From Limonium bicolor (Eukaryota > Streptophyta > Magnoliopsida > Caryophyllales > Plumbaginaceae), in assembly GCA_023374045.1 (NCBI GenBank), contig CM041776.1:478195375-478259374 (forward strand): a stretch of 64,000 nt of DNA, written 5' to 3'. The position numbers were made by a program, and so were the translations under genes. The notes under the pieces are model-generated. The model did no database searches. It saw only the letters and a program-made list of their open reading frames with translations, and was not told the origin of the DNA. This document shows, one piece after another, positions 168-60,208 of this stretch. The stretch's first letter is position 1, and each line of letters starts with the position of its first letter.

Positions 168-349
168 TGGTCCGGGTTTGTGCCCGGGTCTATAAACCCG
201 GACTAGACACTGAAATGTGTTTCTGGCCATTTTTACATGTGTTCCGGGTTTGTGTACCGGGATACAAACCCGGACCAACCCCTGTTATGCCTTTCTAGTG
301 CGTTTTTGCTATGGTCCGGGTTTGCGTACCGATTTGCAAACCCGGACCA
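168..349. repeat. Hairpin array of A0: three 38-nt palindromes, 72-nt period
   Basis: Units at 168-205, 240-277 and 312-349 start exactly 72 nt apart and are each 38 nt long. Each has outer arms close to GGTCCGGGTTT and AAACCCGGACC around a variable centre. Spacers of about 34 nt are AT-rich. The array occupies the same place in A0 as the differently sequenced arrays in A1 and A2. Confidence 0.85.
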
Positions 350-1226
350 CCCCTGGAACTGTCAAAATTTACAGTTTTTGATCAGTTTTCAACCCCTATT
401 TCCCTAATCATTTCCTAACCTTTCCACATGTTTCCTACATGTTTAAGCACCCTATAACATGCCCTAATCATGTTCCAAACCTCCTCAAAACTCTAGTCAA
501 ATCCCTTCTCAATCCTTGCTCAATTTCTACAGATTTTTCTTCCTCTCTGTTACAGTTTGCACCTCTTGTGCATTTTCTAACTTCTCTTGGTAGTTACACT
601 TTGCTCTCTCTTATTTTGACCATTCCAAATCCTTCCTAAACAATTGCATCAACTACACCCAAGTCCTTCCTCCATTTCCAAGATTATAGACACTAGCTCT
701 TTTTCTAAAAATTCCAAGTTACCAAACACCACTTATGCTACATATTTTCATCTCTTCCAAACTCATCCTCCACTTACCATTCCAAAGCTATTAATCCACT
801 TCACTAAACCCAAATGATCACCTAAGTTCTCCCATTTCCAAAGTCACCTAAAAACACTTATTTTCCACCGAAATTTCGCCATAGTTTCCCCATAAACCTA
901 ACATGCCCAAAATCATCCTTCAACACCAAAATCAAATCCTAATCTAGCCACACCCACAAGGGGTCCTACCAGCACACATATCAATCCACCAACCTCATTC
1001 AAATTACATAAAGCATAATATACCACAATAGCTCAAAACTTGGCACTTAAGCCCTTAATTCAAACAACAATCCACAATTTCCCTCAACTTCAACCAACTA
1101 CTTTATTTCACATAATTTGGGTTCATTATTTAATTTAACCCATCCCAATTTCCAAAGCAATCAAAACAAGGTTTAAGGTATATTTCTTACCTTAACTTAC
1201 AAGTCTCTCCTTAATTCTCCTCTTGC

Positions 1227-1231
1227 TCCTC
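1227..1231. other. Target-site duplication TCCTC, left copy, of the Athila-type element
   Basis: TCCTC stands directly before the left LTR and again directly after the right LTR at 14248-14252. Removing the element and one copy restores continuous A0 sequence, judged against A1 near 24090-24130. Confidence 0.85.
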
Positions 1232-2287
1232 TGTTGAGTAAAAACCTAACGACAAGTATACCGGTCGATTATAGCAAGTTTTCCTAGAAGTGTCCCTCCA
1301 GGTTATCGAATCCAAGGGAGGCAGCGTTTTAGTTTAATTAATATTTAAGAACAAACTAATAAATCGGTTTACTCCAGTAACAGGGGGTTTTGTTTGTTGA
1401 ATTGCTAAAGTACGAAACAAGAATGTAAATAAGAGCAAAGGTAATAAATGCAAGACAGTGGGCAAAATAATGATATTTTTTGATTTAATAACAAGGGGAA
1501 ATTCCGGTTTACTAATCCTCCAATTTCTTCGGTTCCTTTCTCAGTGTGTTTTACCAAAATCCAGACTAAAATCCTAGATCAGAAATATTCCACGTTCGGT
1601 CTCCCGCTCGGTGGAATCTAATTAACAACTAATAAATTTTAACTCTCGTTACAAATTTACTAATTGCTAATAGCTTTAAGAAAAATCCAGTTTATTGATC
1701 AGTTAATATCCTAGAGGAATTACCATCTCTAAATTAACCGGTACCGTTCCTGTTGTCTATTATCTACCGCAGTTCTCACTTATAAGCAGATAAACTGATA
1801 AAATCAAGTAATTGGCCAAATCACAAGATTTATAAAATAAATAAGGAACAACACTTAATCTATTAAAATGGTAAATCATAAAGATAATGGAACCTTGAAT
1901 TTGGATTACATAGCAAACCGAAATTTATAGAAACTACTCAGCCATGGAAATGAAAATACTGTAAAAATATATAAATAACATTAAAAGAAGAAGAGAAGAA
2001 GAAACTCAGATTTAAGATTCTTTGATGGAGTCTCTGTGTACAATTAGCATTTTCTTCTGCTCAATCCCCAGAAGATGCGGTGAATTCCTCAACTGCAACT
2101 TCATGCACTTTCAGAATTCTGGAAAGATGGATGTGTGTAGTTATGTAGGTGATAATGAGGTGATAATTTATGGAGGATGTGTGTGAAATAAGGCTGATGG
2201 ATGTAATCAGATGGAGGAATGTATCGTGTGAGAAGTGGTATGATGCTTCTCCAGAATTGTGTCTATAAAATGTGTGAGAATGAGTTC

Positions 2288-2297
2288 TATTTATAGA
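2288..2297 (-). promoter_or_regulatory. Probable TATA box in the Athila 3' LTR
   Basis: CTATAAATAG on the minus strand, centred in a palindrome AGTTCTATAAATAGAACT, about 750 nt into the LTR and downstream of the hairpin array. The same site is in the other LTR at 13473-13482. A TSS has not been shown. Confidence 0.6.
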
Positions 2298-2557
2298 ACT
2301 TATGGATGAGTACGTAGCAGCTTGGTGTGGTGGACATGATGATTAATTATGTTATTTGTTGGAAGGAAGATGGGAGTGCAGTTGGCAAATTTGGAAGGTA
2401 GTTAGATTAGTGGGATTAGAGGATGGAAAGTAGTAGCAGTGGAAGGGATGGAATACGATTGTGGAGGAAAGGCTGGAGAATATGGGGCGGCAGTTTAATA
2501 TGAAGAGAATAAAATTCTCTTTACGTTCGCGCGCTATAGATTGTCGCTTCAACAATA

Positions 2558-2811
2558 TGGTCTGGGACTTAGGTCCTGTAGGAAGTCCCGGACCATGGTA
2601 TAAAAACAGGTCGAGAGTTGGCGTCTTATGGGCCGGGACTTAGGGTCTGTATAAAGTCCCGGACCATGGTATAAAAACAGGTCGAGAGTTCTGTCATGGT
2701 GTGGTCCGGGACTTAGGCCATGTATAAGATCCCGGACCATGCCTGTATTCCATTCGAGAGTTGAGCTAGTTTGTGGTCCGGGACTTAAGTTATGGAACAA
2801 GTCCCGGACCA
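2558..2811. repeat. Hairpin array, Athila 3' LTR: four units of about 38 nt, period about 72 nt
   Basis: Units start at 2558, 2631, 2702 and 2774. Consensus arms are TGGTCCGGGACTT and AGTCCCGGACCA. Spacers carry the repeated phrase CGAGAGTT. Unit 1 has one arm mutation (TCTGGG) and unit 2 is clipped. The same array is in the 5' LTR, in the element's interior (6208-6464) and in solo LTR A2. Confidence 0.9.
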
Positions 2812-3048
2812 TGCCTTGAAATTAGGTCGATGATGATTTTCTCCATTTAGCTTGTTTGAAAAACTATGGTCTCCACAATGATATGAACATGTTTCTTTGA
2901 GATAAAATACCTGAAAAAGCACATAAAAACCATAAAAGAGACAGTTGCAACAAGACATAGAAATACTCAAAAGACAGGGATTTAGCAGTAAATAGCACGA
3001 ATTCGTATCAAAAGACCATGCAGAAATAGGTAAATTCCTGACTTATCA

Positions 3049-3060
3049 ACTTCCCCCTTA
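3049..3060 (-). other. Polypurine tract of the Athila-type element
   Basis: AAGGGGGAAGT on the minus strand abuts the 3' LTR start TGATAAGTC. This is the expected plus-strand DNA priming site. Confidence 0.85.
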
Positions 3061-4397
3061 ATCTTTGCTTGTCCTCAAGCAATTACTGCAATCAAAATGT
3101 ACCAATTTCAAAAGCGGGGATTTATCAGGTCAGGAACAATGTACAAGGCAGAACAACAGTCATAAGAAACAACGATTAGTACTGCAGGTTTTCTTAAACA
3201 GTGAAGCTAGGGTGTTTTACAAATGCATGAGACTATCATCATAACTATTTATCCAAACTTTACTCAGGGCTTTACTTTCCATTGCTTTCCACAATTCATT
3301 GGACGATAAGGGCAACAAGTAATTCATATTCCACATTACCTTTCATTGCCACATACTCATCAGGAATTTGCAATAAACTGTTTAGCATGAAAGAACTTTC
3401 CTTCCAATTTTTCTGAGTAAGCATTATTCATTTCATCCCCCCAGACTTTTTCTCCCCATCCTTGTAGCGGTGTTGGGCCTTCTATCCCAGATCAGATGAT
3501 CTTAGGTAGATAAGTGATGAAGCACTCCATGGGCTTAATTACCGAATGGGAGAGGTCTGTTCCAGTTCAGAATAGATTAGAGGAGTACCTTGCCTTTGTC
3601 CTTTCCTTCCATTCATTCCAAAACTTTCCCAAAGCCCCAAGTTAGTTCAAACAAAATAGTCACAAAATGGTCTCACCTTTTATTGAAGGAAATAGACAAA
3701 AATTTTAACCAAAAACTGACAATACAAGCAGTATAACCAAAGTTCTTATGACCGAAGTTTCAGATTAAATCTCAAAAAATTTCGCTACTCGTACGTTATT
3801 CCTGACTGATGCATCTGACCACAAATGAAAACCAAGTATGTCGAATTAAAAATTTTGTGGAGGGTCATCAAAGGTTAATGAAGTGAGAATTAGTAGTGTC
3901 AGGAACCATAGAAAATAAGCAATAAACGCACAACCCCCTTACTACTAACTTCCTCACACTTAGAAAATAGCAATGCCCTCATTGCTGCATGAATATGATC
4001 ATAGTGCGAAAGAAAGAATGGAACTCCCCTGAAAAATGGGTGAAGATGATGTCCCCACACTTATGAAAAGGAACAGGCGAGTTAAGGAGTGTTGAGAAAA
4101 ATTCGGCAGAGTCTCCTTTGTATTTTGTCGATATCGCACACAAATATGGCAATCCTGTTTGATAATCAAGCAGCACAATGTTGCAAGACAAACAATGAAC
4201 ATAACCAAGTAGTGTAAGTAGCAGGAGTACCAAAGTAACAACAACAATCTAAAAAGAAAATGAAGGTTACCAGAAGATGCAACCTAACAAGCTAAAAGAC
4301 ATTAAAACATCTCAAATTACCAAGTCAGTTGAAAGTCCAAAAGAACAATAAAAGATAGGTAGACTGATGAAGAAGAGAGCATAAACCCAAACATGTA
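3061..4397 (-). other. Non-coding 3' region of the Athila-type element
   Basis: About 1.3 kb between the extra ORF and the polypurine tract. Only short ORFs without recognisable motifs are present. Long non-coding stretches here are common in Athila elements. Confidence 0.6.
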
Positions 4398-5717
4398 CTA
4401 CCGACGGGGCATGCGCCAGGACTCCAACTGTGTAAAGCGCTCATCATAAGCATGGAATCGGGCCTCCTGACGAGCCGCGTACTCAGCAAACTGAGCATCC
4501 CGCCTGGCCTCATAGTCAGTCTGACGGGTCTCTAAAGCTGAGAGTCTCTCACCATACCCATCCAGACGACTCGTAAAACTGTCAAAGTAAGCTGTAGCAG
4601 TCCCCCTCCCGGCTCTAAACTCATGCAGCAACTCATCATAGCCCGGGGCCGGACCAGCAGGTATCGGGAAGGCTGGGGTCTCACCACCACCAGCAGCAGC
4701 CTCATCAGCAACGGCATCAACCTCATCAGCAACGACATCAGCCTCATCAGCAACCTCAGCGGCGTCCTCAGCAACTCGGGGTGCGCGTGCAGCGCGTCGG
4801 CGCTTCACCCACTGCCCGTCGATCTTCTCCCACTGAAAGAATCTCATCATCATCATATTGAGAGTAGACCGAGGATACTGAGGCTGCTCATCAGATACAT
4901 CCACCCTCCTGTCAGCAAGTAACGACTGTAGGAGGTGTGGGAACGGGAGAGAAGCGGAGTGATCGGTCTCAACTACCCGGATGATGGAGTTAAAGATAAT
5001 TCGATGCATAGCGGGTGGAACCCCTACAGCGGCATAGTCGTCGTCCAGGATGTAGCGCATCAGCCAGCAGTCATACATATTCAGATCAGCGCACTCCCGG
5101 GGGCGAACATTAGACATCGGCACCCTTAAAATCAGACGCTCTCTAGGGGTCGGTAACTTATCCCCCGTGACAACCTGCTTGTCCCAGTTATTCCTACGCT
5201 GCCGGTTTTGAACTTCGGGATCATTGACAATCAAATTAATGTAGTACTCCTTAGCCTGTCGTTCGAACAATGGCATATTCGCCCTATTCTCCGCAGTTGG
5301 AACCCGAACAGCTATGGGCAATCCCAAACAATGCCTAATGCTATAGGCAGTCACAGAAATATCCACCCCTTTAACCACAGAATTAATAGCATCCCTAGCC
5401 TCATTCACCGTCGCATTAGCATAAAACAATTTCACCAATCTCGGATAGAATCTCCCACATCTATTAAGCAAACACAACCAACGACGTGCACTAAAAAGTG
5501 TCTCCAGATCAAACTCAGCTATCAAAGTCGGGCAAACTGACCTTTCGGGTAAGATTTTCCTTTCGCGTGCCCTGTACCAATTTGCAGCGGCTTCATTGAT
5601 GAATTCTGACTCAACCATCTCCCGGACCCGGATCGGAGCTGCATTGGGGGACGGAGGAGCGGCGGCGGAGGAAGATGCGCCTGCTGTGTTGCTGCGTCGA
5701 GCTCGTTTGGGTGCCAT
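4398..5717 (-). CDS. Extra ORF of the Athila-type element (putative plant transposon protein, env-like position)
   Basis: Intact 439-aa reading frame after integrase. The start MAPKRARR (ATG at 5715-5717) is preferred over the upstream in-frame Met at 5948, because the upstream 77 residues are low-complexity His/Pro/Thr-rich, and the basic N-terminus followed by a Ser/Ala/Pro linker is typical. Residues about 30-290 form a globular region (YINLIV, HCLGLPI, MYDCWLMRYIL) that I recognise as the 'putative plant transposon protein' domain found in this slot of Athila relatives. Then come an Ala/Glu/Asp-rich acidic linker (VADEADVVADEVDAV) and a C-terminal Tyr/Arg/Gln-rich, probably coiled-coil tail. 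No signal peptide or convincing membrane segment is seen, so a viral-type envelope role is not supported. Function unknown. Confidence 0.75.
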   Translation of the reverse strand: MAPKRARRSNTAGASSSAAAPPSPNAAPIRVREMVESEFINEAAANWYRARERKILPERSVCPTLIAEFDLETLFSARRWLCLLNRCGRFYPRLVKLFYANATVNEARDAINSVVKGVDISVTAYSIRHCLGLPIAVRVPTAENRANMPLFERQAKEYYINLIVNDPEVQNRQRRNNWDKQVVTGDKLPTPRERLILRVPMSNVRPRECADLNMYDCWLMRYILDDDYAAVGVPPAMHRIIFNSIIRVVETDHSASLPFPHLLQSLLADRRVDVSDEQPQYPRSTLNMMMMRFFQWEKIDGQWVKRRRAARAPRVAEDAAEVADEADVVADEVDAVADEAAAGGGETPAFPIPAGPAPGYDELLHEFRAGRGTATAYFDSFTSRLDGYGERLSALETRQTDYEARRDAQFAEYAARQEARFHAYDERFTQLESWRMPRR

Positions 5718-6688
5718 TTTAAAATTTGGGAGTAAGGATGTGGTAAGGGGTGTTAGTGCGAAGGTTTGGTACGAAATTGGAGTGAGATGGAGACAAGAGC
5801 GGAGGTGCGCTGGGTGAGGACGGAAGATGTTGGGATTTGTGGTGCGTGGGTTGGGTGGCGAAGGCGGTAGTGACGGCGGGTGAATGCGACAGAGGAGGGG
5901 AGTGGTGGTGTGGTGTGGTTTGTGAACGCGATAGATGTAGGGCGGCACGAGGGATATGGTGAAGGATATGGTGGTGTAGTGAAGACGACGGAAGTGGGGA
6001 AGGTGAGAAGTGGCGGTGGCGGAAATGCAGGTGACAGTGGAGGTGAAGTGGTGCGGGTGGCGTGAAGTCGAGGTGGGCTGCGAAGATGGTAGCGGTGGAG
6101 TGGCGTTGTGGGTTTGCGGCGCCGGTTCGCAAGTTAGGGGTTTCAGAAATTGGAGGATGAAGACGACACAACACGTCGTTGTTATTTTTTTCTTTCAAAT
6201 CGCTGCCTGGTCCGGGACTTAAGGTGTGGTTGAAGTCCCGGACCACCCTGTTTAATTCCGCCGAGAGTTCTGTTTGTGATAGGTCCGGGACCTAAGATAT
6301 GGGTGAGGTCCCGGACCACTATGTAAAAATAGCCCGAAAGTTTCTATCGCCTTGGGTCCGGGACTTAAGATATGGGCGAGGTCCCGGCCCAGGTGAATTT
6401 TTCGGTTCAAGAATTTGCCGCTCCTCTGGTCCGGGACTGAAGTCCTGTAACAGGTCCCAGACCACCCCTTGTGAATCCACCGAAAGTATGCTTCCTAGAA
6501 CTCTGTTTCTCTTCCTTCACCAAACCTACACTTTAACAAAACCAACCAAAGAAAGCTAACAAAGGAATCAGAGCAAGTAAAAACATGAATTAAAACGAAA
6601 CACAAGAAGATAAATGAAGGAATATTGGGTTGCCTCCCAATGAGCTGCCCATCTTTTCGGTCTTTGGCTAGACTGTGCAACTGTAAGA
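5718..6688 (-). other. Intergenic region between integrase and the extra ORF
   Basis: No supported gene. Short ORFs on both strands are low-complexity. It contains the four-unit hairpin array at 6208-6464, about 490 nt upstream of the extra ORF's start, so it may hold an internal promoter. No clear TATA box was seen. Confidence 0.5.
6208..6464. repeat. Internal hairpin array: four 38-nt units at exactly 73-nt steps
   Basis: Units start at 6208, 6281, 6354 and 6427, each 38 nt, with arms TGGTCCGGGACTTAAG and GGTCCCGGACCA and spacers carrying CCGAGAGTT or CCGAAAGTT. This is the LTR cassette repeated outside the LTR, upstream of the extra ORF. Unit 3 has a damaged right arm (CCCGGCCCA). Confidence 0.9.
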
Positions 6689-12408: not shown

Positions 12409-13472
12409 TAAACTTATTGAGTAAAAACCTAACGGCAAGTATACCGGTCGATTATAGCAAGTTTTCCTAGAAGTGTCCCTCCAGGTTATCGAATCCAAGG
12501 GAGGCAGCGTTTTAGTTTAATAAATATTTAAGAACAAACTAATAAATTGGTTTACTCCAGTAACAGGGGGGTTTTGTTTGTTGAATTGCTAAAGTACGAA
12601 ACAAGAATGTAAATAAGAGCAAAGGTAATAAATGCAAGACAGTGGGCAAAATAATGATATTTTTTGATTTAATAACAAGGGGAAATTCCGGTTTACTAAT
12701 CCTCCAATTTCTTCGGTTCCTTTCTCAGTGTGTTTTACCAAAATCCAGACTAAAATCCTAGATCAGAAATATTCCACGTTCGGTCTCCCGCTCGGTGGAA
12801 TCTAATTAACAGCTAATAAATTTTAACTCTCGTTACAAATTTACTAATTGCTAACAGCTTTAAGAAAAATCCAGTTTATTGATCAGTTAATATCCTAGAG
12901 GAATTACCATCTCTAAATTAACCGGTACCGTTCCTGTTGTCTATTATCTACCGCAGTTCTCACTTATAAGCAGATAAACTGATAAAATCAAGTAATTGGC
13001 CAAATCACAAGATTTATAAAAGTAAATAAGGAACAACGCTTTAATCTATTAAAATGGTAAATCACAAAGATAATGGAACCTTGAATTTGGATTACATAGC
13101 AAACCGAAAATTATAGAAACTACTCAGCCATGGAAATGAAAATACTGTAAAAATATATAAATAACATTAAAAGAAGAAGAGAAGAAGAAACTCTGATTTA
13201 AGATTCTTTGATGGAGTCTCTGTGTACAATCAGCATTTTCTTCTGCTCAATCCCCAGAAGATGCGGTGAATTCCTCAACTGCAACTTCATGCACTTTCAG
13301 AATTCTGGAAAGATGGATGTGTGTAGTTATGTAGGTGATAATGAGGTGATAATTTATGGAGGATGTGTGTGAAATAAGGCTGATGGATGTAATCAGATGG
13401 AGGAATGTATCGTGTGAGAAGTGGTATGATGCTTCTCCAGAATTGTGTCTATAAAATGTGTGAGAATGAGTT

Positions 13473-13482
13473 CTATTTATAG
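13473..13482 (-). promoter_or_regulatory. Probable TATA box of the Athila 5' LTR
   Basis: CTATAAATAG on the minus strand about 770 nt into the LTR, identical to the copy at 2288-2297. The likely transcription start is roughly 30 nt lower in coordinate. Confidence 0.6.
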
Positions 13483-13743
13483 AACTTATGGATGAGTACG
13501 TAGCAGCCTGGTGTGGTGGACATGATGATTAATTATGTTATTTATTGGAAGGAAGATGGGAGTGCAGTTGGCAAATTTGGAAGGTAGTTAGATTAGTGGG
13601 ATTAGAGGATGGAAAGTAGTAGCAGTGGAAGGGATGGAATACGATTGTGGAGGAAAGGCTGGAGAATATGGGGCGGGAGTTTAAAATGAAGAGAATAAAA
13701 TTCTCTTTACGTTCGCGCGCTACAGATTGTCGCTTCAACAATA

Positions 13744-13999
13744 TGGTCCGGGACTTAGGTCCTGTATGAAGTCCCGGACCATGGTATAAAAACAGGTCGA
13801 GAGTTGGCGTCTTATGTGGTCCGGGACTTAAGGTCTGTATAAAGTCCCGGACCATGGTATAAAAACAGGTCGAGAGTTCTGCCATGGTATGGTCCGGGAC
13901 TTAGGCCATGTATAAGGTCCCGGACCATGCCTGTATTCCATTCGAGAGTTGAGCTAGTTTGTGGTTCGGGACTTAAGTTATGGAACAAGTCTCGGACCA
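13744..13999. repeat. Hairpin array, Athila 5' LTR: four 38-nt units, period 72-73 nt
   Basis: Units start at 13744, 13817, 13890 and 13962. Unit 2 is intact here but clipped in the other LTR. Unit 4 has two arm changes (GGTTCGGG and GTCTCGG) that weaken the stem together. Confidence 0.9.
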
Positions 14000-14247
14000 T
14001 GCCTGAAATTAGGTCGATGATGAATTTCTTGACTCCATTTAGCTTGTTTGAAAAACTATGGTCTCCAACAATGATATGAACATGTTTCTTTTGAGATTAA
14101 ATACCCGAAAAAGCACATAAAAACCATAAAAGAAGACAGTTGCAACAAGAAACATAGAAATACTCAAAAGACAGGAATTTAGCAGTAAATAACAGCGAAT
14201 TCGGTATCGAAAGACCATGCAGAAATAGGTAAATTCCTGACTTATCA

Positions 14248-15456
14248 TCCTCCTCTTCTCAAATTCGGTCAAGTGGGGATGAAGTTTCCAAACTCCATCC
14301 CAACATTCAAGAAACACAAAGATGCATTCAATTAATCATCTAAACCCTTAAGAAATTCTAATTCAATTAAAGGGCTTAAATACAAAGTTAGGGTTTACCT
14401 TTGGAGCTTTTTGAGAGGGGTTCTCACCCTTGAACCAAGAAGGGGAATATTCCACCATTGGAGGGTTGAAATGAAGCTCAAAATCAAGAAGAAAACAAGG
14501 CATTACAAGGGGGATAAAATTGGTCACCAAAGGAGAAGGAAGAAAAAGGGGTTTTCTTGGAGATTTTTACCTTAGGAGAGAGAGGAGACTCCAAGCTACT
14601 CATTGATGCCATTTGCTCTTCAAATGGGGAAAACCCATATGGATGAAGTTCATCCTTTTCGAATTTTGAAAAGAGAGAATGATAGAGGATGATGAAAGGA
14701 GTTCAAATATGTAATTTATTTTTGATTTGGAGCTTTATCAAAGCTTGGGCATGGAGAAGAATGAAGAGGAGCCATGGAAGGAGGGGGAGAGAGCTTCAAA
14801 ATCGGCTGCACCAGAGGGAAGAAAGAGAGCACAGCAAGGAAGAAAGAAAGGAGGAAAGAGAAGGAAGAAAAGAGAAATGAGAGAGGAGAGAGAGGGGGGG
14901 TTACTTTTACCTTTTTACTTTTCTTTCTTTTTCTTTTCTTTCCTTTTATTTCTAGCTAGTAATAGAGAGAGGATTCTCTTCTTATTAAAACCGGCCCATA
15001 TAAATTTACAAGTTGGAGCGTTTTTCGTCTTTTACAGAAAACACGTTTATTTACCTAGTTTTAGCACTATTCACTAACCGGGCCCGTTTTCCGGAATTTT
15101 CTCGTTTCTTTAATTTTATTGGCTATTGAGCTCCCATTAATGCTTAATTATAGTTATTTAATGAACTATAATTTTTACGGGTTCGTTTGACCACTTAAAG
15201 CCACATTTTCGGGTTTTCTCAAAAAACGTGCACTAAAGCTTTATTAGCATTTTGATACATTATTTGGATCCGTTTTCTTTGGGAATTGTTCCCATATAAA
15301 TTTACAAGTTGATACATTTAGCGTTTCTCGCTTTTTAAGCATTTCTCTTGTTTCTTTTGGATTTATTCTTTTTACCAAAATTCATTAGGCACTATTAGGC
15401 CCTCAAATATCATATTAGAGTAATTTAATCACCCTAATTAAGTTCGGGGTATCTCA
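14248..15456 (-). mobile_element. LTR A0, proximal part
   Basis: The minus strand starts at 15456 with TGAGATACCCCGAAC (TGAAATACCCCGAAC in A1) and matches A1 from 22814 to about 24100. It includes the promoter-proximal CACGTTTTT inverted repeat, the CT-rich leader and two splice-donor-like sites (GT at 14570 and 14398). It is interrupted at 14248 by the Athila element. Its own target is B0: the B-type sequence resumes directly at 15457. The other TSD copy is outside the window. Confidence 0.88.
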
Positions 15457-16559: not shown

Positions 16560-16673
16560 GTCCGACCGACCCACCGACCGACCCAGCCCTTGGGTAGGTC
16601 AAAATCAGAAACTCAATTTTGCAGATTTCAGCCCGACCGACCCACTGACCGACCCAACGCCCTGGGTAGGTCG
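16560..16673. repeat. Hairpin array of B0: two units, 72-nt step
   Basis: Units at about 16560-16600 and 16632-16673 combine GACCGACCCACCGACCGACC with GGGTAGGTC. On the minus strand each begins GACCTACCC, and the unit and spacer text (TTCGACCTACC, GGTCGGGCTGAAATCT) matches the array in A1 although the surrounding LTRs belong to different subfamilies. Confidence 0.75.
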
Positions 16674-18536: not shown

Positions 18537-19782
18537 ATTAATTGACAATTTATTAACTAACTGAGAAACTAAACTAAGAAAACATGAGACATCAGTTTTT
18601 CAGGTTTTACTTAATTTGATAAAAAGAATAACTCAACCAACTAAGATAAAATAATAAAACAGTAAAAATGAACCAAATAAAGAATAAAGATTGAAACTCT
18701 AAAATCTAAAGAAGCACCCCGGATTGTTCTGCAAACCTTCACTTTATTAATCTATTAATAAACTCTTACCTAATTCTACAATAAACTTAGGAATCTTAAT
18801 TAATCCATTGACCGGTCCCTATACAATGAATCCTAACTGGTAGAAATAACAAGCCGCAAACCATGCCCAAGTCAATTCTAACCAATCGCTTTATAACAAA
18901 TTCCTATTGAAGATAGATTAACCTATAGGCAAACCATGCTTCTAGTCGTAAATCCGGTTTAACTTCCTATATCTTGTTAACTAATCTCAGCACCACATTT
19001 TGATTAGAAAAATACAAAGATTGCTTTAATATAGCTAGAGAATTAAAGCGCATGAAGAAATGGAATTAAACTACTACATTAATGAATTAGTGAAAATAAT
19101 ACAAAATTAATATTAAGATCTGGTTTACTTCCCCAATCTAGGGAGCTAAACTAATTAAGCTAACATAAATATAAAAACTAGAAAAATAACAACAAAGGAA
19201 GAACACTTTGAACATATTAGAGAAAAAGAAAGAAGAAACACTGCTAGAAGATCCTTGCTTCGCCTTTTGTCATCACGTGTCTCTGTATTAATACTTCTTC
19301 AGAAGTGTGGGGTGCTAACAATGGTGGACTTGAGTGGGTGTGAGAGAGAGGAGGCCGAAGCCCCCAAGAGAGGCGCAACCATATGGTGTGAATGAAACGT
19401 GTTTGTTTTTCTAACCCTAGGTGCCTTTTATATCAAAAATAGAGATTTTTATCTCTTAAAAATGTGTATTATAGACTTCTGACAGCTGCGTCCGGACATG
19501 CAAGTCCGGACTCATGTTTGGACAAGTTGATGTGTCAACTTGTTTTAGGCCTACATTCTTCGTTCAGACTCCATTTTGCTTCCTGTTTGTTGCTTTGCGA
19601 AGCTTGTGAAGTAATCTATGCATTTCCAATATATGTTTCTACATTTGACACATAAAATGTATCAGTTCATATCAAAACATAGATATATGGAAAAACATAT
19701 GATAAGTGAGAAATATGACATGAATTGTTGTGAGAATAGGAAGAATTAAAGGCCTAAAAGTATATATATTTCGCACTTATCA
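18537..19782 (-). mobile_element. LTR F, Athila-like LTR fragment interrupted by B0
   Basis: The minus strand starts at 19782 with TGATAAGTGCGAAATA, the start style of Athila-like LTRs, and runs to 18537, where B0 was inserted. The candidate B0 TSD is ATTAA at 18537-18541. The remainder is beyond the left edge. No ORF with known motifs. It holds two short hairpins at 19490-19543. Confidence 0.6.
19490..19543. repeat. Two adjacent hairpins in LTR F
   Basis: First: GTCCGGAC (19490-19497) repeated at 19504-19511; the octamer is self-complementary, so the two copies can pair around a short loop. Second: ACAAGTTGA (19522-19530) pairs perfectly with TCAACTTGT (19535-19543) around TGTG. The first uses the GTCCGGAC core seen in the other arrays. 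Confidence 0.75.
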
Positions 19783-23489: not shown

Positions 23490-24970
23490 ATTCTCTCCCA
23501 TTCTCCTTCTTCCCCACCATCACCTTCCTCCTCCCTTCTGCATTTTCTGGCGATTTGCATACTTCCATGGCAGCCCACCTTCTCTTGCTTGCCCAAGCTT
23601 CATCCATGCTCCAAATGCAAAATAAATTACATATTTGAACTCCCCTCACAAAGCTCTACATTTCTCTCTTTTCAAAATCCGGAAATGATGAACTTCATCT
23701 CCATGGGTTTTGCCCATTTGAAGAGAAAATGACATCAAATTGAAGCTTGGAGTTTCCTCTATCTCCTAAGGTAAAAAGGTTCCAAGAAAAACTCATTTTC
23801 TTCATCCTTCCTTCTTGGCCGATTTTACCCGTTCTCATGCCTTGTTTTCTTCTTGTTTTGGAGCATTGGTTCAACTCTTCAATGGTGGTTGAACCCTCTT
23901 CTTGATTTAAGGGTTAAAAAAACCCTCATAAAGCTCCAAAGGTAAAAACCTAGCTCTTGTGCTTTAAGCCCCTTTCGTTGAATTAGAATTTCCTAAGGGT
24001 TTAGAATTTTAATTGAATCTATTTTTGTGTTCCTTGAATGTTGGGATGGAGTTTGGCAACTCCATTGCCCATTTGACCGAAACTGAGAAGAGGAAGAGGA
24101 AGAGGAAAATTGAAAGGAGACTTGGAAGATTAAGGTAAGAAATCCACCTTAAGGTTTATTTTGATTGTTATAGAATTTTGGACGGGATAATAAATTGAAT
24201 GAACCAAAATCTTGCTAGAAATGTGTTTAGTTGTGATTAGGAAGAACTTATGAAATGTTGGTTTGAATTAAGGGCCTTTGAGCCAAGTGATTTGGGAATT
24301 GTGTTTATATTGTTGTTTGGTGAATTTTGAATTGAGTTTGTGTGCTGGTAGAACCCCTTGTGGGTGTGGCTAGATTAGGATTGATTTGGATGAGAATTGA
24401 AGAGTTTGGATATGTTAAGTTTATGGGGAAACCATGGCGAAATTTTGGTAGAAAATGAGCATTTTTAGATGACTTGGTGAATGGGAGAACCTAGATGCTT
24501 ATTAAGTTGAGTGGAGTTAATTAATGACCTTGAAATGGTAGTTGGAGGATGAGAATAAAGTGTGTAAAAATCTGTAGCAAGGAGTGTTGAAATGCATTGG
24601 AAAAACTAGGAAAGAACTAGTGTGCAAGACTTAGGAAAATGAGAGTTGAAGTTGGGTTTTAGAAGTGCATTTGTCTAGGAATGATTTGGGATGGTCATTA
24701 AGTGATTTGGTAAGGTTGGTAGGAGGTAGAAACTATCAAGAAGAAGTAGAAGTGCACAAGTGTGCAAAATACAAGAATGTGGGAATTGAAACTTGTAGAA
24801 ATTAAGCAAGGATTGGGTAAAGGATTTGAGTAATGATTTGAGGAGGTTTAGAGCATGATTAAGGAGTGTTTTAGGGTGTTTAAACATGTGAAAACGATTT
24901 TGAAAAGATTGGGTGAGGATTGAGGTGAATTTGGAGTCCAAAGTGAGTAGTTAAAATGGGTACTGAGTTC

Positions 24971-25161
24971 GACCTACCTTGCGACCGACCTTGGCAAGGT
25001 AGGTCGGGCTGAAATCTTCAAATCCGGAGTCTTCTGACTTCGACCTACCTTTCGACCGACCTTGGCAAGGTAGGTCAGGTCAAATAAAAAAAAATTCTCC
25101 AAACCAGCAACCTTCTGACTTCGACCTACCTTGCGACCGACCTTGGCAAGGTAGGTCGGGC
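24971..25161. repeat. Hairpin array of A1: three units of about 39 nt
   Basis: Units at 24971-25009, 25042-25080 and 25123-25161; steps 71 and 81 nt, the longer step holding an expanded A-run. Arms are GACCTACCTTGC and GGCAAGGTAGGTC. Spacers share CTTCTGACTTC. The cassette type is the one in B0, not the ones in A0 or A2. Confidence 0.88.
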
Positions 25162-28837: not shown

Positions 28838-31003
28838 TTTAATACCCCGGACCTAAAAATGGTGGTTAAATTATTCTAATACGATTATTAAAGGCCTAAT
28901 GGTGCCTAAAGAGTATTGGTAAAGAGAATAAAACCAAAAGAAAAGAGAAAATGCGTAAAACGTGAAAAACGCTAAAACGCGCATTAAATAAGTACAAGAG
29001 ATATATGATCTCGTTAGGGTCCGAGATGGATTCCTAAGGCTTAGTTAGGCCTAATTAGAATACGGGAGTGATTCCCGAAGAAACCGGATCCAAATAATGG
29101 ATTAAAACGCTAACAGAGTTTTAAAGCACGTTTTTCGAGAAAACCCAAAAACGTGGCTTTAAGTGGTCAAACGGACCCGTAAAAATTATAGTTGATTAAA
29201 TAAATATAAATAAGCATTAATGGAAGCTTAATAACCATTAAAAATAAAGAAACGAGAAAAATCCGAAAAACGGGCCCGGTTAGTGAATAGTGCCAAACTG
29301 GGTAAAATAATAAGCGTTTTCTGTCAGAAAACGAAAAACGCTCCAGTTTAATAATGTAGTGGGGGCCGGTTTTTAATAGCCTCTCACATACTCACACACA
29401 AATAAAGAAAGACAGAAAAAAAAGAGAGGGAAAAGCAAAAAGTTAAAAGTTAAAAGCTTTTTCCTCCCTCTCTCTCCTCCATTCTCCTTTCTTCTTCCTC
29501 TCTTTCCTCTTTCACCGATTCCCTTCCTCCCTCTCTGTGTTGAACGACATGGAAGCTCCAAACATGGCTTCTCCACCTTCTCTTCCATGCCCAAGCTACA
29601 CCCAAGCTCCAAACTAAAAAATAATCACATATTTGTGATCCTCTCATCACCCTCTATCATTCTCTCTTTTCAAAATTCTAAAAGGATGAGTTTCATTTTC
29701 GTGGGTGTTGGCCATTTGAAGAGAAAAGCACACCATTTTGAAGCTTGAAGCTTCCTCTTTCATCCAAGGTAAAAATATCCAAAGAAAATTACATTTCCTT
29801 CACCTTTTTTGGTTGGCCGATTTTGGCATGTTTTGATACCTTGCTTCTCCTTGTTTTGAGCTATTCTCCAAGTCTCTAATGGTGGGTTGGAGCTCCCCCT
29901 TTGATTCTTGGCAAAACCAATTCTAGGGTTTCCAAAGGTAATTCCCATTTTATGCTATAAGCCTTCTTTTGAATTCATGAATGATTTTTACAACTAGGAG
30001 AACTAATTGGTAATCCTTACACCCATTGGTATATTGGTCTAGAGAATTGGGGCAAGAGATTGCCTTGACCGATTTTGGGTGAAGAGAAAAGGAGAAGAGG
30101 AGAAGAACATTCAAAAGGAAACTTAAGAGAATTTAAGGTAAGAAACCAACTCTAATGTATATTCTACATGTGTTAGGATTTGGGAAGGGTTAATTAAAAT
30201 GAATGAACCCAAATATGTATTGGAATGTGATTTGTTGAGATGAGGAGAGTTGTGATAATAATGTACTTGTATAGAAATAATGCAAGTGAGGAAACATTGT
30301 GAATAAAGTGTTTGATTTATGAGCTATGCACTTTATGGATTATGCATTGTGTTGCATTTGGAGAATGGATGAGTTTTGTGTTTTTATGTGTGCTGGTAGA
30401 ACCCTTGTGGGTTTGGCTAGTTTTAGGATGAAATATGTGAAGAGATGAGTTTTGGACAAGGTTAGGAAAGTAGCCAAGTTGTGGCAAAATTTGTGTAGAA
30501 ATCTAAGTGGATTAAGTGTTGGTTTGAGTGGAGAATAACCTAGGAGTGGCTAGGTATGTATGGAGGTTGAGTTGGGTTAGTAAACCACCTTGGGAATGCT
30601 AGTTTAAAGAGAGGAGATTTGTGCAAAAATCTGTAGCAAAAGAGGTTGTTTAAATGCTTGAGGAGTTATAGAAAAACAAAGGAGATTTAAGGTTTTAAGA
30701 GAGAGATATGAACCTTAGTATGGGATGTGCATTATCTTGGAGGATGTGGAATGGTTTAAATGAAAGAGAACATAATGCAAAGTGTAGAGGAGAAGTTAGA
30801 AATGCACAAGTGTGCATTAGTGCAAATGAGAATGAAAAATGTGTGAATTTGGGTAAGGGTTGAACCTATGATTTGAAGAGTTTTTGAGCATGTTTTAAGT
30901 TGATTAAACATGTGGAAAACTTATGGAAAGATTAGGGAAAGATTGAGGGTGGATTAGGGATTGATTTGGAGTGGAAAAACTGCACTTGTAACAGATTTTA
31001 GCA

Positions 31004-31260
31004 TGGTCCGGAACCTAGTCCTTGGACAAAGTTACGGACCACCCCTTAAATTCATGCCGAGAATTCATCCTAGTACCTGGTCCGGGACTTGGGATATGGA
31101 CAAGGTCCCGGACCACCCCATGAAATGAGCCGAGAGTTAGAACCAGTGCTTGGTCCGGGACTTGAGTTTGGTACAAGGTCCCGGACCACTAGTTAAAATC
31201 ACCCGAGAGTTGGGACCAGCATTGGTCCGGGACTTAGGGTGAGTACCAAGTCCCGGACCA
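31004..31260. repeat. Hairpin array of A2: four 38-nt units, steps 74, 73, 72
   Basis: Units at 31004-31041, 31078-31115, 31151-31188 and 31223-31260, with arms TGGTCCGGGACTT and GGTCCCGGACCA. Spacers contain CCGAGAGTT, as in the Athila arrays. Unit 1 is the most decayed (GGTCCGGAACC / GTTACGGACC). Confidence 0.92.
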
Positions 31261-32844
31261 CCCCCAAAAGCCTACAGAAAGTGTTTTAAAGGTTTCTAAT
31301 GATGGGGATTTAAATGTTAATGATGTCATAAGATGTTAAGGCCTTGTTTGGTAACATGTAAAGGCCCTAAGAAGTGTAAGGAAGTGTTAGAAGTGATTGA
31401 GAAGTGAGAACTCAAATTAACAAGAGTAAAACCGAGGTAACGGGATAACGGGGTAAGTACGGGAGTAGCATTTAATTATGTACCGTATGATCTTAGTATT
31501 AACAATAATGTTTGAAACATTATCAGAGAGTCGTGCGTGACCCGAGCATGGTGAGATGACACAGGTAAAGTAAAAACCCGGTGAAAGGTATGATTTTCTC
31601 ATACTCCGCGTGCTAACCGAGTTACGTTGATTTGTGTGTTTGTGTGCCGGCTTAATCAAGACTAAATCATGAAAATAATCCATTTTTTGATTATGTATGT
31701 CTTGTTGTATGTTGAATGAGCTAACATACTTGTATGCCGGTGTGGTCTAACATAGAGTAAAGACTGACTCATAGTGAGTAACGTTTGGCTAAAGACCCAT
31801 AGATCGGGTCGATGCTTATGATAACGAAATCGTGCAAACACACAAACTATCCATTAAAGTATAACGATAACGCATACATATGAACTCCCTAGAATGTGAG
31901 GAGATGTGCGGGTTGAGTAATTACCCGATAACGGTTAGTAAACCATAATGACACAATCCACGAAACAAATGAGAGTGGAAAGATAAGTGAACCTCCTTCA
32001 AGAGGATTAAAGATAGTTTGAAGATGTGAACTAGTAAAGAAGGTAAAAGAGGCCTAAGGGATTAGTAGCTCCCTTGAGACATGGTCGACCTCCTATATGA
32101 GGATTTTACCCGATATAAGAAAATAACCGAAAGTATGAGTAAGTGAAATGTATGGGTAACTCTTAAAACCTAAGTTTAACCGAACTTAAGTAATGTTCCC
32201 AAAGTCATTAGAAACATCGAGAGTGATGCTTCTAGACTAATATACATAATATTATTATAACTCCGAGAGGGGAGTGTATGGGAATGTAAGTAGTCCGAGA
32301 GTAGTCGGACCTCAGTAAAAAGAGATAGGAACTAAGAGAGAGTTCCGTGAGCTAGTTGAACCTTCCCACCATGCTAGACCCAGAGTAGGGTCGAAACCGG
32401 GGAAGTAAGACTATGCTCGTAAGCCATGAGTTTGGCCCTAGTATGTATTAAGAGTAACAAGCGTGACGTAGGAGACCTGTAGTGTCTCGAGTATCTACAA
32501 GAGCTTGAGTATAAATAACCCAAGAGTGTGGGTGAGATAATGAGTATAAGTAACCCGAGAGAATGGGTGAGTATAGTACGAGTAGCCCAAGAGAATGGGT
32601 GTGTATATGAATAAGTAACCCGAGAGAGCGGGTAAGTTATTAAATGAATAACCACGGCATAGTGAGGTATAACCCTCATGGCCTAAGAGTAATAGATTAG
32701 ACTAACAACCTTGCTATGTTAGTTAGGAATTGTATCCCATGATTGATTGTCGAATCCTTGTGTAGTGTACATATATAATGTATTACTATATGCATGTTGG
32801 TTGAATTAGAATGAACTCCATGCTCTCGACAAAAGTAGTCGGCG

Positions 32845-32926
32845 TACCCCGGTTAGCGCTCGGGGTATGCGAATTTCATATGCAGCGTTAAGCTGAGCCC
32901 CTAAGGGCAACGTTTTTATTTTTCAG
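32845..32926 (+). promoter_or_regulatory. Late structured module and acceptor-like site in A2
   Basis: TACCCC...GGGGTA stem (32845-32867), GCCCCTAAGGGC (32897-32908), then TTTTTATTTTTCAG|GTAC. The second stem differs from A1's by one base and keeps its pairing potential. Confidence 0.6.
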
Positions 32927-33306
32927 GTACACCGAAGATGTTACCGTTCGAGAATAGGACGGGGTCGGTGGGTTGCATGGGTAGTTAGATTTAATTACTT
33001 ATGTATTGAAAGAGGTGTAAGACCGAATATGTTGTCGGCATCCATATATTGTAGACTCGGTATAGTAAAGAAGTGATTTGAGTATTGTATGAGACTCGGT
33101 TAGAGTGAATGAGTATTGTGTTGTTTTGTGTACTCGCTTGTTCCAGTTCATCAGACCGTTACGGTATGTAAGTAAGTCTGGTTAGCCACATGGGTGGCTA
33201 ACGGCGTTGTTTCACCCCTCGTTGCAATTAGAGTTCCGCTGCATGAGTAAGAGTAATTAGTAACGGTTTAAGAGGTAATGACGAGATTAACGGTTGGGGT
33301 GTTACA

Positions 33307-53851: not shown

Positions 53852-53890
53852 ATCTACCCCCCTTAAAAAGACTTCGTCCCGAAGTCTCTT
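53852..53890 (-). other. Polypurine tract and hairpin, internal 2
   Basis: The minus strand has the same GACTTCG/CGAAGTC stem and AAGGGGGGTAGAT tract as at 42417-42455. Confidence 0.88.
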
Positions 53891-56803: not shown

Positions 56804-57077
56804 TCATGCCCTATCTACTCCCTTGCCTTTATAGCTCCAGCATGAGTAGATGTCTGGCCATCCTGACCGCCTCGTGGTACTCCAGATCCTCCAGCTGAGG
56901 TCTTTTGAGTATTCTTGGGTGGCCTGTAATTACGGCTCTCTGGATTAATCCAGCACTCGAATTTCCTATGGCCCTCTTTGTGGCAGCACCGACACTCGAC
57001 TTTGCGGCCTTCGCAGTCGACCCCAGGATGGTCTTTCCCACAACGCTTAGTAAAAGTGGCGCTGGGCTGTCCGGTGC
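56804..57077 (-). pseudogene. Gag exon 4, copy 2
   Basis: Counterpart of 45342-45619. Knuckle 2 is intact here (CRCCHKEGHRKFEC), but knuckle 1 has lost its first Cys (FTKRCGKDHPGVDC) and a 1-nt deletion near 56834 shifts the tail. The two copies carry complementary damage. Confidence 0.72.
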
Positions 57078-57162
57078 CTGATGGTAGTATTTAAGTTTAA
57101 GTTAAAATCTAGCGGTATAAAGGTTAAGGTTACAATTTAATTTAAGAGGTAGGTGTTCTCAC
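57078..57162 (-). other. Putative intron 3 of gag, copy 2
   Basis: 85 nt, donor AAGG|GTGAGAAC, acceptor ACCATCAG|GCACC intact. Same length as in copy 1. Confidence 0.65.
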
Positions 57163-57279
57163 CCTTAGGAGGTGCGGATCTCAGAGGCTTAGCATCTATA
57201 GCTGGGCCGGTCAACTGAAGGACGGGCTCATTTCCCTTTGTTTCCTGGGACCCTGCTGCCCTTTCTTTTAAAGAATTTC
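57163..57279 (-). pseudogene. Gag exon 3, copy 2
   Basis: Counterpart of 45705-45823, 2 nt shorter (indels near 57250 and 57268), so its frame is partly lost. Confidence 0.6.
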
Positions 57280-57351
57280 CTGTTCAAGATTTCAGGTCAG
57301 CATTCTTAAGGTATTTATATGATAATTATCTGAAATGGAATAAGTCCTTAC
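57280..57351 (-). other. Putative intron 2 of gag, copy 2
   Basis: 72 nt, donor AAA|GTAAGG, branch-like TGCTGAC, acceptor TTGAACAG|G, as in copy 1. Confidence 0.62.
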
Positions 57352-57499
57352 TTTCCCTTCTTTTGGCTTTCGCCTGGAGATGCTCCTCCACCCTTAGACT
57401 CTCCCTCAGGGTTCTTCCTTTTCTTGGCCCCGAGAGTCTCTTCCCGGTCTGGAGCATTAGCTCCGTCCTCGAGGCAGCCTCATAAACTCCTGGAATCTC
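57352..57499 (-). pseudogene. Gag exon 2, copy 2
   Basis: Counterpart of 45898-46047 with YEAASRTELMLQT followed by a frame change (2 nt shorter overall). Confidence 0.65.
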
Positions 57500-59882
57500 C
57501 TTGGTAAGTTCAAACAAAGTTAATTGGTAATGTAGTAAGTAAAGAATTTTATGGCTTTCATGAAATACCCCAAACTTAGATATGGTGTTTAAATGATAAA
57601 CTAAGATATAAGAAGGCTAAATAATGCCTTAGAAACATTAAGAAACATTTCTAATCAAAGAAAATATAAGGAAACACCAAAAGAGCAGTTTAAGCAAAAC
57701 GTGCTCTAAGCTTGGAGGACATGGGAGAGTACCCAAATATTGTTCTAAGACCTTAGTAATAGCCTAATGGCCATTTTAAGTCAATTACCAAAGAAAACCA
57801 AGATTGAAAACTAGTTAAAACACAAAATGTGCTTTAAGGAGTCTTAAAGCACGTTTTTGAAAATTGTCTGTAAATGAGTTTTGAATGGCTAAATGTCCAT
57901 CATTACTCTTTAATTAATATGTGTACTATATAGTATCACATTTGGAGGTCTATATCAATGGGAAATCAAAAATTTCACAACAATGTGCCTTGTTTTTGAT
58001 GAATAGTGAATTAATTAAACTAGTTTATAACATAAGTCTATATAAGTGAGACATTTGGTCAACAAAGACTAAATACCCTCATTCATTAAAGGGGGCCGGT
58101 TTTTTAAGTGTGACTCACCACACTTATCTAGCTAAGTAAAGAGAAAGCAAAATAAGTAAGTTATAAAGCATAAAGTACTATTCACCTTTTAAGATAAATA
58201 TCACATTTTGCTTACCTCTCTCCTCACTTCTTCATTCTTCCTTGTCTCACACGATTTCTTGCTCTCTTTCTCTTCTCCATTAACGTGAAGCTCCTCTCCA
58301 TGCTAGCTCCACCTTCTCTTGCACACATCTTGCTCATTTTAGCTCCAAATCCAAACAAATACATATTCTTCTTAGTTAGCTCAAGCTCCTCCTTTCTATC
58401 TTTTCAAAACTTCAAGAGCTTCATTTTGGTGCCAAGTCAACCACCATTAGAGGGAAATTCAAGTTTGGAGACTCCATTGGCATCTCCATTCTTTAAGGTA
58501 AAGAAAGTGTAAGAAAATCTAGGTTTCCACCATTTTCTTCACTTGACCGAAAATATATACTCATGGGACTCCATGTTTATGCCTGTTCTAGCTTGTTTCT
58601 ACTCTTCAAAGGAGAGAGGAGGTCTTTCTTGCTTCTACCCAAGTTGTCTTGAGAAAACCGAGGTAAAATAATCACATTAATACCTTAAAGCATATTTTTA
58701 AACCTAGGGTTTGTTCCTTAGGGTTAATGTGTTATCTAGTACTCATTGGAGTCATTGGATTATGGTTTAGAACATTGGCAAGGAGATCACATTGGTGACC
58801 GGATTGAACAAAGAAAACCTAAGAGAAAAGCTTTTAAGCTGTGTGAGAAAACAAGGTAAATACTTACCTTAAGGTGTTTTGTTGTTTAAGGAATGAGATT
58901 GGGTATATGATGATTTGGTTGTAGAGTTTATATTGGGAAGGTGCTATAAAAACCTAGGAGAAACAATGACTATACTTGTGAACTTGTGACTAAGGAGCAA
59001 ATGAGAAAAGAGATAGTTTAAGGATGTAAAGGTGAAGTACAAGAAGCATTTTATTTCAATGGGAGCCTTGTTGAGTGTATTCGCAGGTTGAAGGCATATA
59101 TATATGTGGAAATTCAGTGGTTAAGATTACTGTCATTTAAGGGCCTAAGTGCCAAGCATTTTAAGTTTAAGCATTATATGATGATGTGGTGAAGTTTAGT
59201 TTGTAAATTGGGTGTTAAGGTGTTGTGATGAGAATTTGTGTGGTGTTGGTTGTTTGATGGAGAAAAACCTTGTGTTAGGAAGTACTATATACTAGAGAAC
59301 CCATGGCAAATTTAAAGGAGAGTTTAAGTGTTTAAGATATCCTAAGGGAATTTAATGACTAAGGAAGTACTAGGAATGTTCTAGGGTTGTCTTGATGAAA
59401 AAGGGTGAAGTTAAGGTGTTTTAATGACTTATGAGGACTTAGGTATCACCATGGAAGATTTAGGAATCAAGAGAATGTATTCGAGTGTTTAGGACTTAGG
59501 CAAATGTTGATGCACAACTAGGAAGGAAATAATGTGATGATGATGGAAGTTTAGACTTGTTAAGGAACTTTAAGTAAATGTTTTAAAAGAGTTTTAGATA
59601 GTGAGAGATGCTTGGGAGATGATGTTATAGTGGTGAAGAAAACATTTGGCATAGTGGTTACATTAGGTATGAACCACCACCTAGAAACCTAGAGGAAAAC
59701 ATTACAAGTGTTAGCATTATTACAAGAAAAATGCATAATGACTAAGGTGGATCTTGGTGGGTGATTTAAGGTATTTTAAGGAGGGCTTAAGTGTATTTGA
59801 GGTGCCCAAATGAGGTTATAACATTAGAATATATGAGGAGAAGTTTGGAGTTGAAAGAGGATTTAAACAAGTTTCTAGAGCC

Positions 59883-60208
59883 GACCGGCCTTAGGACCGG
59901 ACTTGCAAGGTCGGTCGGGCTCTGTTACACTACCGGAAAATGTTTCTGGAATCGTCCGACTTGGGGACCGGACTTACAAGTCCGGTCGGGCTTGTGTTTT
60001 GTGAGGGAAAATGTTTCTGGAATGGACCGGACATGGGACCGGACTTGTCAAGTCCGGTCGGGCATGAATTTTGTACGGTAATAAGTCTCTGGAATCGACC
60101 GGACATAGGACCGACATGTAAGTCCGGTCGGGGTAGAATTTTCCAACGGTAAAAGGGTACTGGAATGGACCGGACTTAGGCAAGTCGGTCGGTAAGTCCG
60201 GTTTGGCC
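59883..60208. repeat. Hairpin array of B1: five units of about 38 nt, steps 71-72
   Basis: Units start at 59883, 59954, 60025, 60097 and 60168. Arms are GACCGGAC and GTCCGGTCGGGC around GGGACCGGACTT. Spacers share GTTTCTGGAAT. The fifth unit is rearranged. The cassette type differs from that of B0 although the LTRs are of the same subfamily. Confidence 0.88.

Follow-up and report, generated by a model that had tools for sequence, protein, structure and literature searches.

The stretch of the Limonium bicolor genome analysed here (assembly GCA_023374045.1, contig CM041776.1, positions 478,195,375 to 478,259,374 of the forward strand; hereafter the window, 64,000 nucleotides in all) contains long terminal repeat (LTR) retrotransposons and LTRs in which palindromic units of about 38 nt are repeated in tandem at a period close to 72 nt. 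Two distant Ty3/gypsy lineages, Athila and a chromovirus-like one, carry such arrays, as the first-pass annotation of the window had suspected. Each unit consists of two complementary arms around a loop, which often holds a degenerate third copy of the arm (the middle half-site below), and neighbouring units are separated by a spacer, which may carry an asymmetric motif, AACTCTCGG. The A/B-type LTRs, with a length of ~3.9-4.5 kb, are probably chromovirus-like, a label chosen in this analysis and presumably equivalent to Tekay/Del; upstream of the B-type LTR at L019 (L numbers denote loci compared with the window) lies the end of an integrase whose chromodomain match falls just short of the curated cut-off (24.6 vs 25.1 bits, E 2.4e-5). 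The features of the window are as follows:

168..350, minus strand: array A0, three units with GGTCCGGGTTTG arms and steps of 72 and 72, in a chromovirus-like LTR whose sense is minus and which was later split by the Athila element (flank 26-176 aligns to the reverse complement of 31252-31402).
~1232-14250, minus strand: Athila element with gag, reverse transcriptase-RNaseH, integrase and a PF20167 open reading frame (ORF3).
1232..3054, minus strand: Athila 3' LTR, starting TGATAAGTC, with a 5-bp target duplication, GAGGA, at both outer ends of the element (by eye).
2557..2812, minus strand: Athila 3' LTR array, four units with TGGTCCGGGACTT arms; a TATA-like CTATAAATAG lies near 2290, downstream of the array.
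4401..5717, minus strand: Athila ORF3 (PF20167 Transposase_32, E 3.6e-13), whose open frame follows the interior array.
6207..6465, minus strand: Athila interior array, four units at steps of 73, 73 and 73, between integrase and ORF3.
12417..14253, minus strand: Athila 5' LTR, 97.3% identical to the 3' LTR and followed by a TGGCGCCGTTGCC primer site, which we take to be of the Asp type.
13743..14005, minus strand: Athila 5' LTR array, four units at steps of 73, 73 and 72.
16562..16673, minus strand: array B0, units 16562-16600 and 16634-16673 (72 apart) with arms CGACCTACCC / TGGGTCGGTCG, in a minus-strand LTR of B type.
19487..19514, minus strand: isolated palindrome of 28 nt that shares the GTCCGGAC core and precedes a TATA-like site by ~60 nt, in another LTR of TGATAAG type.
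24970..25158, plus strand: array A1, three units (71, 81) with CGACCTACCTTG arms, the loop holding a third copy.
28840..33306, plus strand: A2 LTR, ~4.5 kb, with no internal region adjoining; its sense is taken as plus because its relative at L024 has a TGGTATCAGAGC primer site directly after it.
31003..31261, plus strand: array A2, four units (74, 73, 72) with TGGTCCGGGACTT arms, the spacers carrying CCGAGAGTT (motif antisense).
57561..61696, plus strand: B1 LTR, TGAAATACCCC...GGGGTGTTACA, without an internal region and with TTTCA on either flank.
59881..60204, plus strand: array B1, five units with CGACCGGACTTG arms; the middle half-site is direct in the first four units and inverted in the fifth (by eye).

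The array geometry described in the first-pass annotation proved real, as all eight named arrays were found in the window and almost none in shuffled sequence. The steps given there were reproduced for A0, the Athila interior and 5' LTR arrays, A1, A2 and B0, and those of the Athila 3' LTR array were corrected from 73, 71, 72 to 71, 73, 72; the five units of B1 were all seen as palindromic clusters, of which a strict scan retained three. A structure-only scan (12-nt arms, at most two mismatches, span 30-44) detected 45 units and 18 pairs spaced 66-82 nt in the window, compared with means of 11.25 units and 0.1 pairs (maximum one pair) in 20 dinucleotide shuffles, and it recovered 7 of the 8 arrays, B0 being read from the sequence instead. 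When applied to a random sample of 20 regions of 10 kb, drawn within parts of contigs C1, C2 and C4-C7 of the 2.92-Gb genome, the same scan yielded 120 units and 17 chains, compared with 41.9 units and 0.4 adjacent pairs (maximum one pair) in 10 shuffles. Four of the 17 chains (L027:9156, L027:9270, L030:5258, and L030:5540) were dropped as another kind of repeat, and L029 was retained despite its first unit not fitting its type. The resulting 13 arrays in 200 kb correspond to ~1 per 15 kb and to ~100,000-325,000 arrays genome-wide, an estimate based on parts of six contigs with Poisson limits that ignore clustering.

The fixed geometry across lineages also held in the random genome sample. 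In the window and the random regions together (20 arrays), 47 of 52 steps fell within 70-75 nt with a median of 72, the period resting on two overlapping step sets of 99 and 52 steps, and the number of units per array varied from 2 to 5. Likewise, the reported association with LTRs was borne out: by flank alignment of the 13 random-sample arrays, as distinct from full LTR annotation, 12 were placed in LTRs (9 A/B-like and 3 Athila-type) and the remaining one between the integrase and ORF3 of an Athila element. The interior array of the window Athila had the same position in the one other copy seen (L027:1172-1428). Moreover, exact palindromes of the form GTCCGGGAC N12-22 GTCCCGGAC occurred at 67,687 places in the genome, whereas the same pattern read backwards, used as a control, occurred at none, and 64,276 of these sites (95.0%) had exactly 16 nt between the 9-nt arms. 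A strict gap length is unneeded for a hairpin loop and common for the spacing of binding sites on DNA. Among the roles first proposed for the arrays, protein spacing or an enhancer array is favoured and the RNA-hairpin role is disfavoured; part of the constant geometry is ascribed to common descent in view of alignable spacers.

The anatomy of the unit extended beyond its two arms. Loops resembled their own arms more than shuffled loops did in every one of 28 arrays with 103 units, a set in which a few loops shorter than 9 nt were skipped and eight arrays, on the six Athila-LTR loci L007-L012, are close kin. Among 121 unique units, five of which had no type and were left out, the arm match (of 12) of own versus other-type loops was 9.4 vs 6.0 for CGACC (n = 12), 9.3 vs 6.3 for GTCCGAA (n = 6), 7.8 vs 6.3 for GGGTTT (n = 11), and 6.9 vs 6.4 for GGGAC (n = 87, P = 0.011). 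For the last type, GTCC or GGAC was present in 18 of 34 unique loops (taken from the places that head the list for contig C1), with a mean of 2.4 and a maximum of 8 in 2000 shuffles, and 16 of the 24 occurrences were exactly 12 nt from an arm core. In addition, unit self-identity peaked at lag 12 in all types (0.40-0.43), with lag 13 close in four of five (123 unique units). The loop thus often holds a degenerate third arm copy 12 nt away in varying orientation, and the unit is read as three ~12-nt half-sites, the middle one probably degenerate and either direct or inverted. Three arrays of CGACC/GTCCGAA type have five units (B1, L016:5333, and L019); in these, the first units appeared direct-direct-inverted and the last direct-inverted-inverted (by eye; one unit of L016:5333 is unclear). 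The arm types, earlier described as unrelated-looking, all shared a GWCCG core (by eye) as well as this 12-nt internal repeat, and the alignable spacers of many array pairs further contradict that description.

Outside the 38-mer, the motif AACTCTCGG matched at 8 or more of 9 positions in 76 of 123 spacers and in 1 of 615 shuffled spacers, an excess that is somewhat inflated by deriving the motif from the same data, by choosing the orientation per array and by counting related Athila copies. Of the 87 spacers with at least 7 of 9 matches, 61 had the motif at an offset of 11 nt. The CpG observed/expected ratio was 0.84 in units, 0.75 in spacers, and 0.59 in flanks; it was not used as evidence, because the motif itself contains CpG.

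On balance, the arrays are probably DNA-level composite protein-binding modules that form an enhancer or anti-silencing platform and have passed between lineages. We infer from the patterns above that each 72-bp repeat would constitute one module of three ~12-bp half-sites on a 12-bp grid, the outer two inverted and the degenerate middle one in either orientation, to which the GGTCCGGG types would add the asymmetric motif AACTCTCGG, at a distance of 11 nt, as the site of a second factor. Since a period of 72-73 bp corresponds to about seven helical turns, the 2-5 modules would face the same way and build a platform in the LTR, which would recruit a sequence-specific, probably multimeric protein and either raise transcription or shield the LTR from silencing. 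The array copy ahead of Athila ORF3 could serve a second promoter. The palindrome would then be a by-product of inverted half-sites, with no selection for an RNA hairpin, and the array would have been passed between chromovirus-like and Athila LTRs, its half-site code being able to outpace the surrounding LTR. If a protein does read the arrays, one sequence code would govern a large share of the plant's retrotransposon load, and the reader protein could be sought with the discrete arm types as ready-made probes.

The orientation of the arrays was compared with that of their elements, an array being scorable if at least one spacer matched 7 of 9. The motif was in sense polarity in 11 of 11 scorable Athila arrays (9 LTR and 2 interior) and in antisense polarity in all 6 scorable GGTCCGGG-type arrays of the chromovirus-like lineage (A2, L016:728, L017, L018, L023, and L024). 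This count leaves out arrays without a match (A0, A1, L014, L021, L029, and L030), unassigned LTRs (L007:3070 and L011:3068) and weak matches seen with the remaining arm types (B1 with 1 of 2 spacers in sense, L019 with 1 of 4 in sense, and L016:5333 with one each way). The arrays of Athila and of the chromovirus-like lineage are thus inverted relative to their elements, an inversion that a DNA element tolerates and that is compatible with a DNA-level role.

Several observations weigh against the binding-platform interpretation. As the loop matches above indicate, GGGAC units have a weak third half-site. In addition, spacers could be aligned in 73 of 171 array pairs (z > 3, better orientation), so that the period is partly inherited through the relatedness of many arrays and common descent accounts for much of its constancy. 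The promoter context was also mixed. An array lay upstream of a TATA-like site in the two Athila LTRs of the window and in L029, and no TATA-like site was found downstream of the array in the L030 LTR by the patterns used. Among six chromovirus-like LTRs compared (window 57561-61696, 28840-33306, and 22814-27230; L014, L019, and L024), four (A1, A2, B1, and L019) had TATA-like sites 366-488 nt from the LTR start, with the array 1.7-1.9 kb downstream, unlike a classical U3 enhancer, and the other two had no TATA-like site at that place. AAGGTAA donor-like sites recurred near 950 nt (6 of 6), 1110 nt (5 of 6), and 1300 nt (5 of 6), and a late acceptor-like TTTCAGGT was detected in A1, A2, and L014 by script and in B1 by eye (TTGCAGGTAAG); like the TATA-like calls, these rest on short patterns without a chance control. 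They suggest that the long chromovirus-like LTR contains a leader intron, in which case the array may be intronic there.

The remaining opposing points concern pairing between the arms, which would be expected if RNA hairpins in the element RNA were selected for packaging, stability, translation or end formation, with the arms drifting while pairing is kept. Arm complementarity is high in every type, some loop letters are conserved (position 18 was C in 93% of 95 GGGAC 38-mers), and between types both arms change together, as also expected under structural constraint; a half-site code explains this last pattern as well. Within the GGGAC type, the 38-mers of the window and random loci (32 unique, 416 arm pairs) contained 36 one-sided and 5 two-sided changes and formed 379 pairs vs 374.9 in shuffles. 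The outermost pair 1 was in excess in this unascertained 32-unit set (26 vs 22.1, sd 1.2) and also in the set of all 95 unique GGGAC 38-mers, which formed 1122 pairs vs 1105.3 in shuffles, with 107 one-sided and 14 two-sided changes; this larger set is partly ascertained, as 20 loci (L033-L052) were chosen by exact arms, and 7 of its 14 two-sided changes trace to one unit that is out of register by a loop deletion. Pair 12 showed no covariation in either set. The unascertained set thus had even less covariation than the larger one, which left the odds between the readings unchanged. Within this commonest type, arm changes were mostly one-sided, with hardly any covariation apart from pair 1.

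Mismatch classes bear on the same alternative. In motif orientation, 28 arrays with 1,339 positions had 54 A-C, 26 G-T, and 58 other arm mismatches, and in sense orientation the 11 Athila arrays had 27 A-C and 3 G-T and the 6 chromovirus-like arrays 7 and 7, counts in which related copies share mismatches. G-U pairs were therefore not favoured in sense RNA. Furthermore, a third half-site would compete for pairing, the gap length stays constant while loop letters vary, and the polarity is reversed in the second lineage. Selection on an RNA hairpin, which the within-type pairing test, the mismatch classes and the third half-site removed as the first choice, is accordingly regarded as distinctly unlikely, even with the complementarity and the modest covariation of the outermost pair in its favour.

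Comparison of related copies revealed how arrays and LTRs diverge. B1 and L019 LTRs were at least 92% identical in 28 of 30 outer 100-bp windows, whereas their array zone (59661-60460) comprised eight windows at 69-83% with many gaps and had GACCGG-type vs GTCCGA-type half-sites. In this one LTR pair the array zone is hypervariable, and the arm code can turn over faster than the surrounding LTR. Between A2 and L024 the greatest divergence was upstream of the array, i.e., the array is not always the fastest-changing part. The L018 LTR matched A2 at 86.7% downstream of the array, but its arms were GGGTTTG, of A0 type, and an Athila-type LTR at L030 had GGGTTTG arms 252-503 nt from the LTR start, the same distance as the GGGACTT arms in the window Athila. 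The GGGAC and GGGTTT arm types were thus found in both lineages; such discrete types mark exchange between LTR lineages, even if the arrays are neutral. Different arms may also adjoin: at L048:115-603, three GGTCCGGG units are followed ~190 nt on by CGACCGACCC units at a step of 73. Since insertion, the two LTRs of the window Athila have come to differ at 4 of 112 arm, 3 of 48 loop, 1 of 96 spacer, and 23 of 1564 other positions. As these changes strike arms no less than the rest, the near-perfect arms predate insertion, and whatever maintains them acts before it, while the lineage is active. Outside this genome, one pattern scan of viral contigs returned four stretches, all unrelated (three being the same sequence and one GC-rich).

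These data also bear on a neutral origin, in which recombination spread a functionless ancestral 72-bp repeat, with homogenisation through unequal exchange or through reverse transcriptase template switching, which may repair palindromes too. The alignable spacers, the identical units within some arrays (L030) and the range of 2-5 units would all follow from it. Such a process accords poorly with the retention of the spacer motif, half-site core and gap length as other letters change, with two discrete arm types common to both lineages, with arms of the Athila LTR pair that decayed as fast as the rest after insertion, and with arrays at like positions in relatives of each LTR lineage, and it is considered unlikely. 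The fast turnover of the array zone in the B1-L019 pair might instead reflect arrays that are host silencing targets or sources of small RNA, the inverted repeats giving rise to small interfering RNA and being kept by mutation pressure rather than benefit. A harmful target should be lost, yet arrays are common and their geometry is kept, and stems of 12-14 bp are short for dicing; this explanation is therefore very improbable.

A bolder version of the binding-platform reading, which we advance tentatively and consider doubtful, is that the half-site code shared by the two Ty3/gypsy lineages is read by a trans-acting protein of multiple specificity, so that VANC/TnpA anti-silencing would have an equivalent among retrotransposons. 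The chromovirus-like elements would parasitise this factor from Athila (perhaps ORF3) or from a DNA transposon, and the code would switch in concert (GGGACTT, GGGTTTG, CGACCGACC, and GTCCGAAC) in the manner of an arms race. PF20167 is the sole domain of Athila ORF3 above its cut-off, no homologues were found at E <= 0.001 in the protein collection (8000 candidates scored), and a single-sequence fold was uninformative (mean pLDDT 44.7). No ORF3 was seen in the chromovirus-like elements among the pieces scanned. If a protein reads the arrays, it would become directly testable whether sequence-specific activators are used, shared or stolen by retrotransposons.

Several known systems resemble the arrays in part. 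Tandem enhancer repeats occur in the U3 region of LTRs, with 72-75 bp units in murine leukaemia virus and BII boxes in the plant LTR of Tnt1. These are tandem modules, the viral ones of ~70 bp, that precede the TATA box of the LTR, as the arrays do by position in the two window Athila LTRs and L029; in contrast to them, the arrays here are palindromic triple half-sites, occur in two distant lineages and have copies downstream of the predicted promoter or ahead of ORF3. Both array polarities occur, one per lineage, which bears on the orientation independence expected of an enhancer.

In Arabidopsis, the VANC-target repeats of VANDAL elements are described as bound by a protein that counters silencing (PMC5735166, PMC10398659). 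They share with the present arrays a short motif that is dense in tandem repeats of non-coding mobile-element DNA and whose type differs between close relatives, the units changing together (here in one LTR pair, B1 vs L019). Their motif copies have the same orientation and belong to DNA transposons, whereas here half-sites are inverted within the unit on a 12-bp grid and lie in LTR retrotransposons, with two arm types common to two lineages; no match to DUF1985 (VANC) was detected among 30 pieces scanned at E <= 0.01. CACTA subterminal repeats, as described for soybean Tgmt and bound by TNPA-like proteins (PMC2613891), similarly contain direct and inverted motif copies able to form stem-loops, and their motif (17 bp in Tgmt and 12 bp in En-1) diverges between families and is thought to track the DNA-binding protein (PMC2613891). 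Those repeats are at DNA transposon ends as cis-determinants for transposition, whereas the present arrays belong to LTR interiors, repeat every 72 bp and have a second motif in the spacer, and the flanks of all 13 sampled arrays aligned to LTR elements of the window. VANC-target and CACTA subterminal repeats are thus the nearest known kinds and alike in outline, and the arrays belong to neither due to their LTR setting, their inverted half-sites, the absence of a DUF1985 match in the pieces scanned and the lack of CACTA ends. Retand elements (PMC11963269) also have family-specific tandem arrays, suspected to be regulatory, in non-coding parts of Ty3/gypsy elements; those are in the 3' internal region (pol to 3' LTR), whereas the arrays here are mainly in the LTR, and their palindromic geometry is common to both lineages. 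Among the open-licence papers that searches on the arrays and their analogues listed, none reported LTR arrays of this kind in its title or abstract opening, and an exact-phrase search of open-licence papers on repeats, palindromes or hairpins in LTRs returned nothing; PMC6911290 concerns palindromes at insertion sites, not within LTRs.

Several minor observations were also made. The stretch L030:5258-5810 has CGGCGGTT palindromes 70-90 nt apart, CACTA-like by eye but with no clean CACTA terminus there, together with GACCGACCCAG half-sites resembling those of array B0, so that DNA transposons may have this half-site as well. In the window, a single 42-nt palindrome around GGTCAA...TTGACC was present at 41760-41801 and 53196-53237, within a duplicated block (40185-46110 vs 51641-57562, 96% alike), and the palindrome scan detected no array at either site. 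Furthermore, a 2OG-Fe(II) oxygenase domain of AlkB type (PF13532) was identified between the gag/zinc knuckle and the protease of Ty3/gypsy elements at L013:3416-4174 (plus strand, E 2.4e-45) and L018:5999-6646 (minus strand, E 1.4e-32). An orchid study reports an AlkB-type domain in only two Phalaenopsis species among the genomes screened (PMC9289625). In the L018 element, the domain co-occurs with an A2-like LTR that contains a hairpin array.

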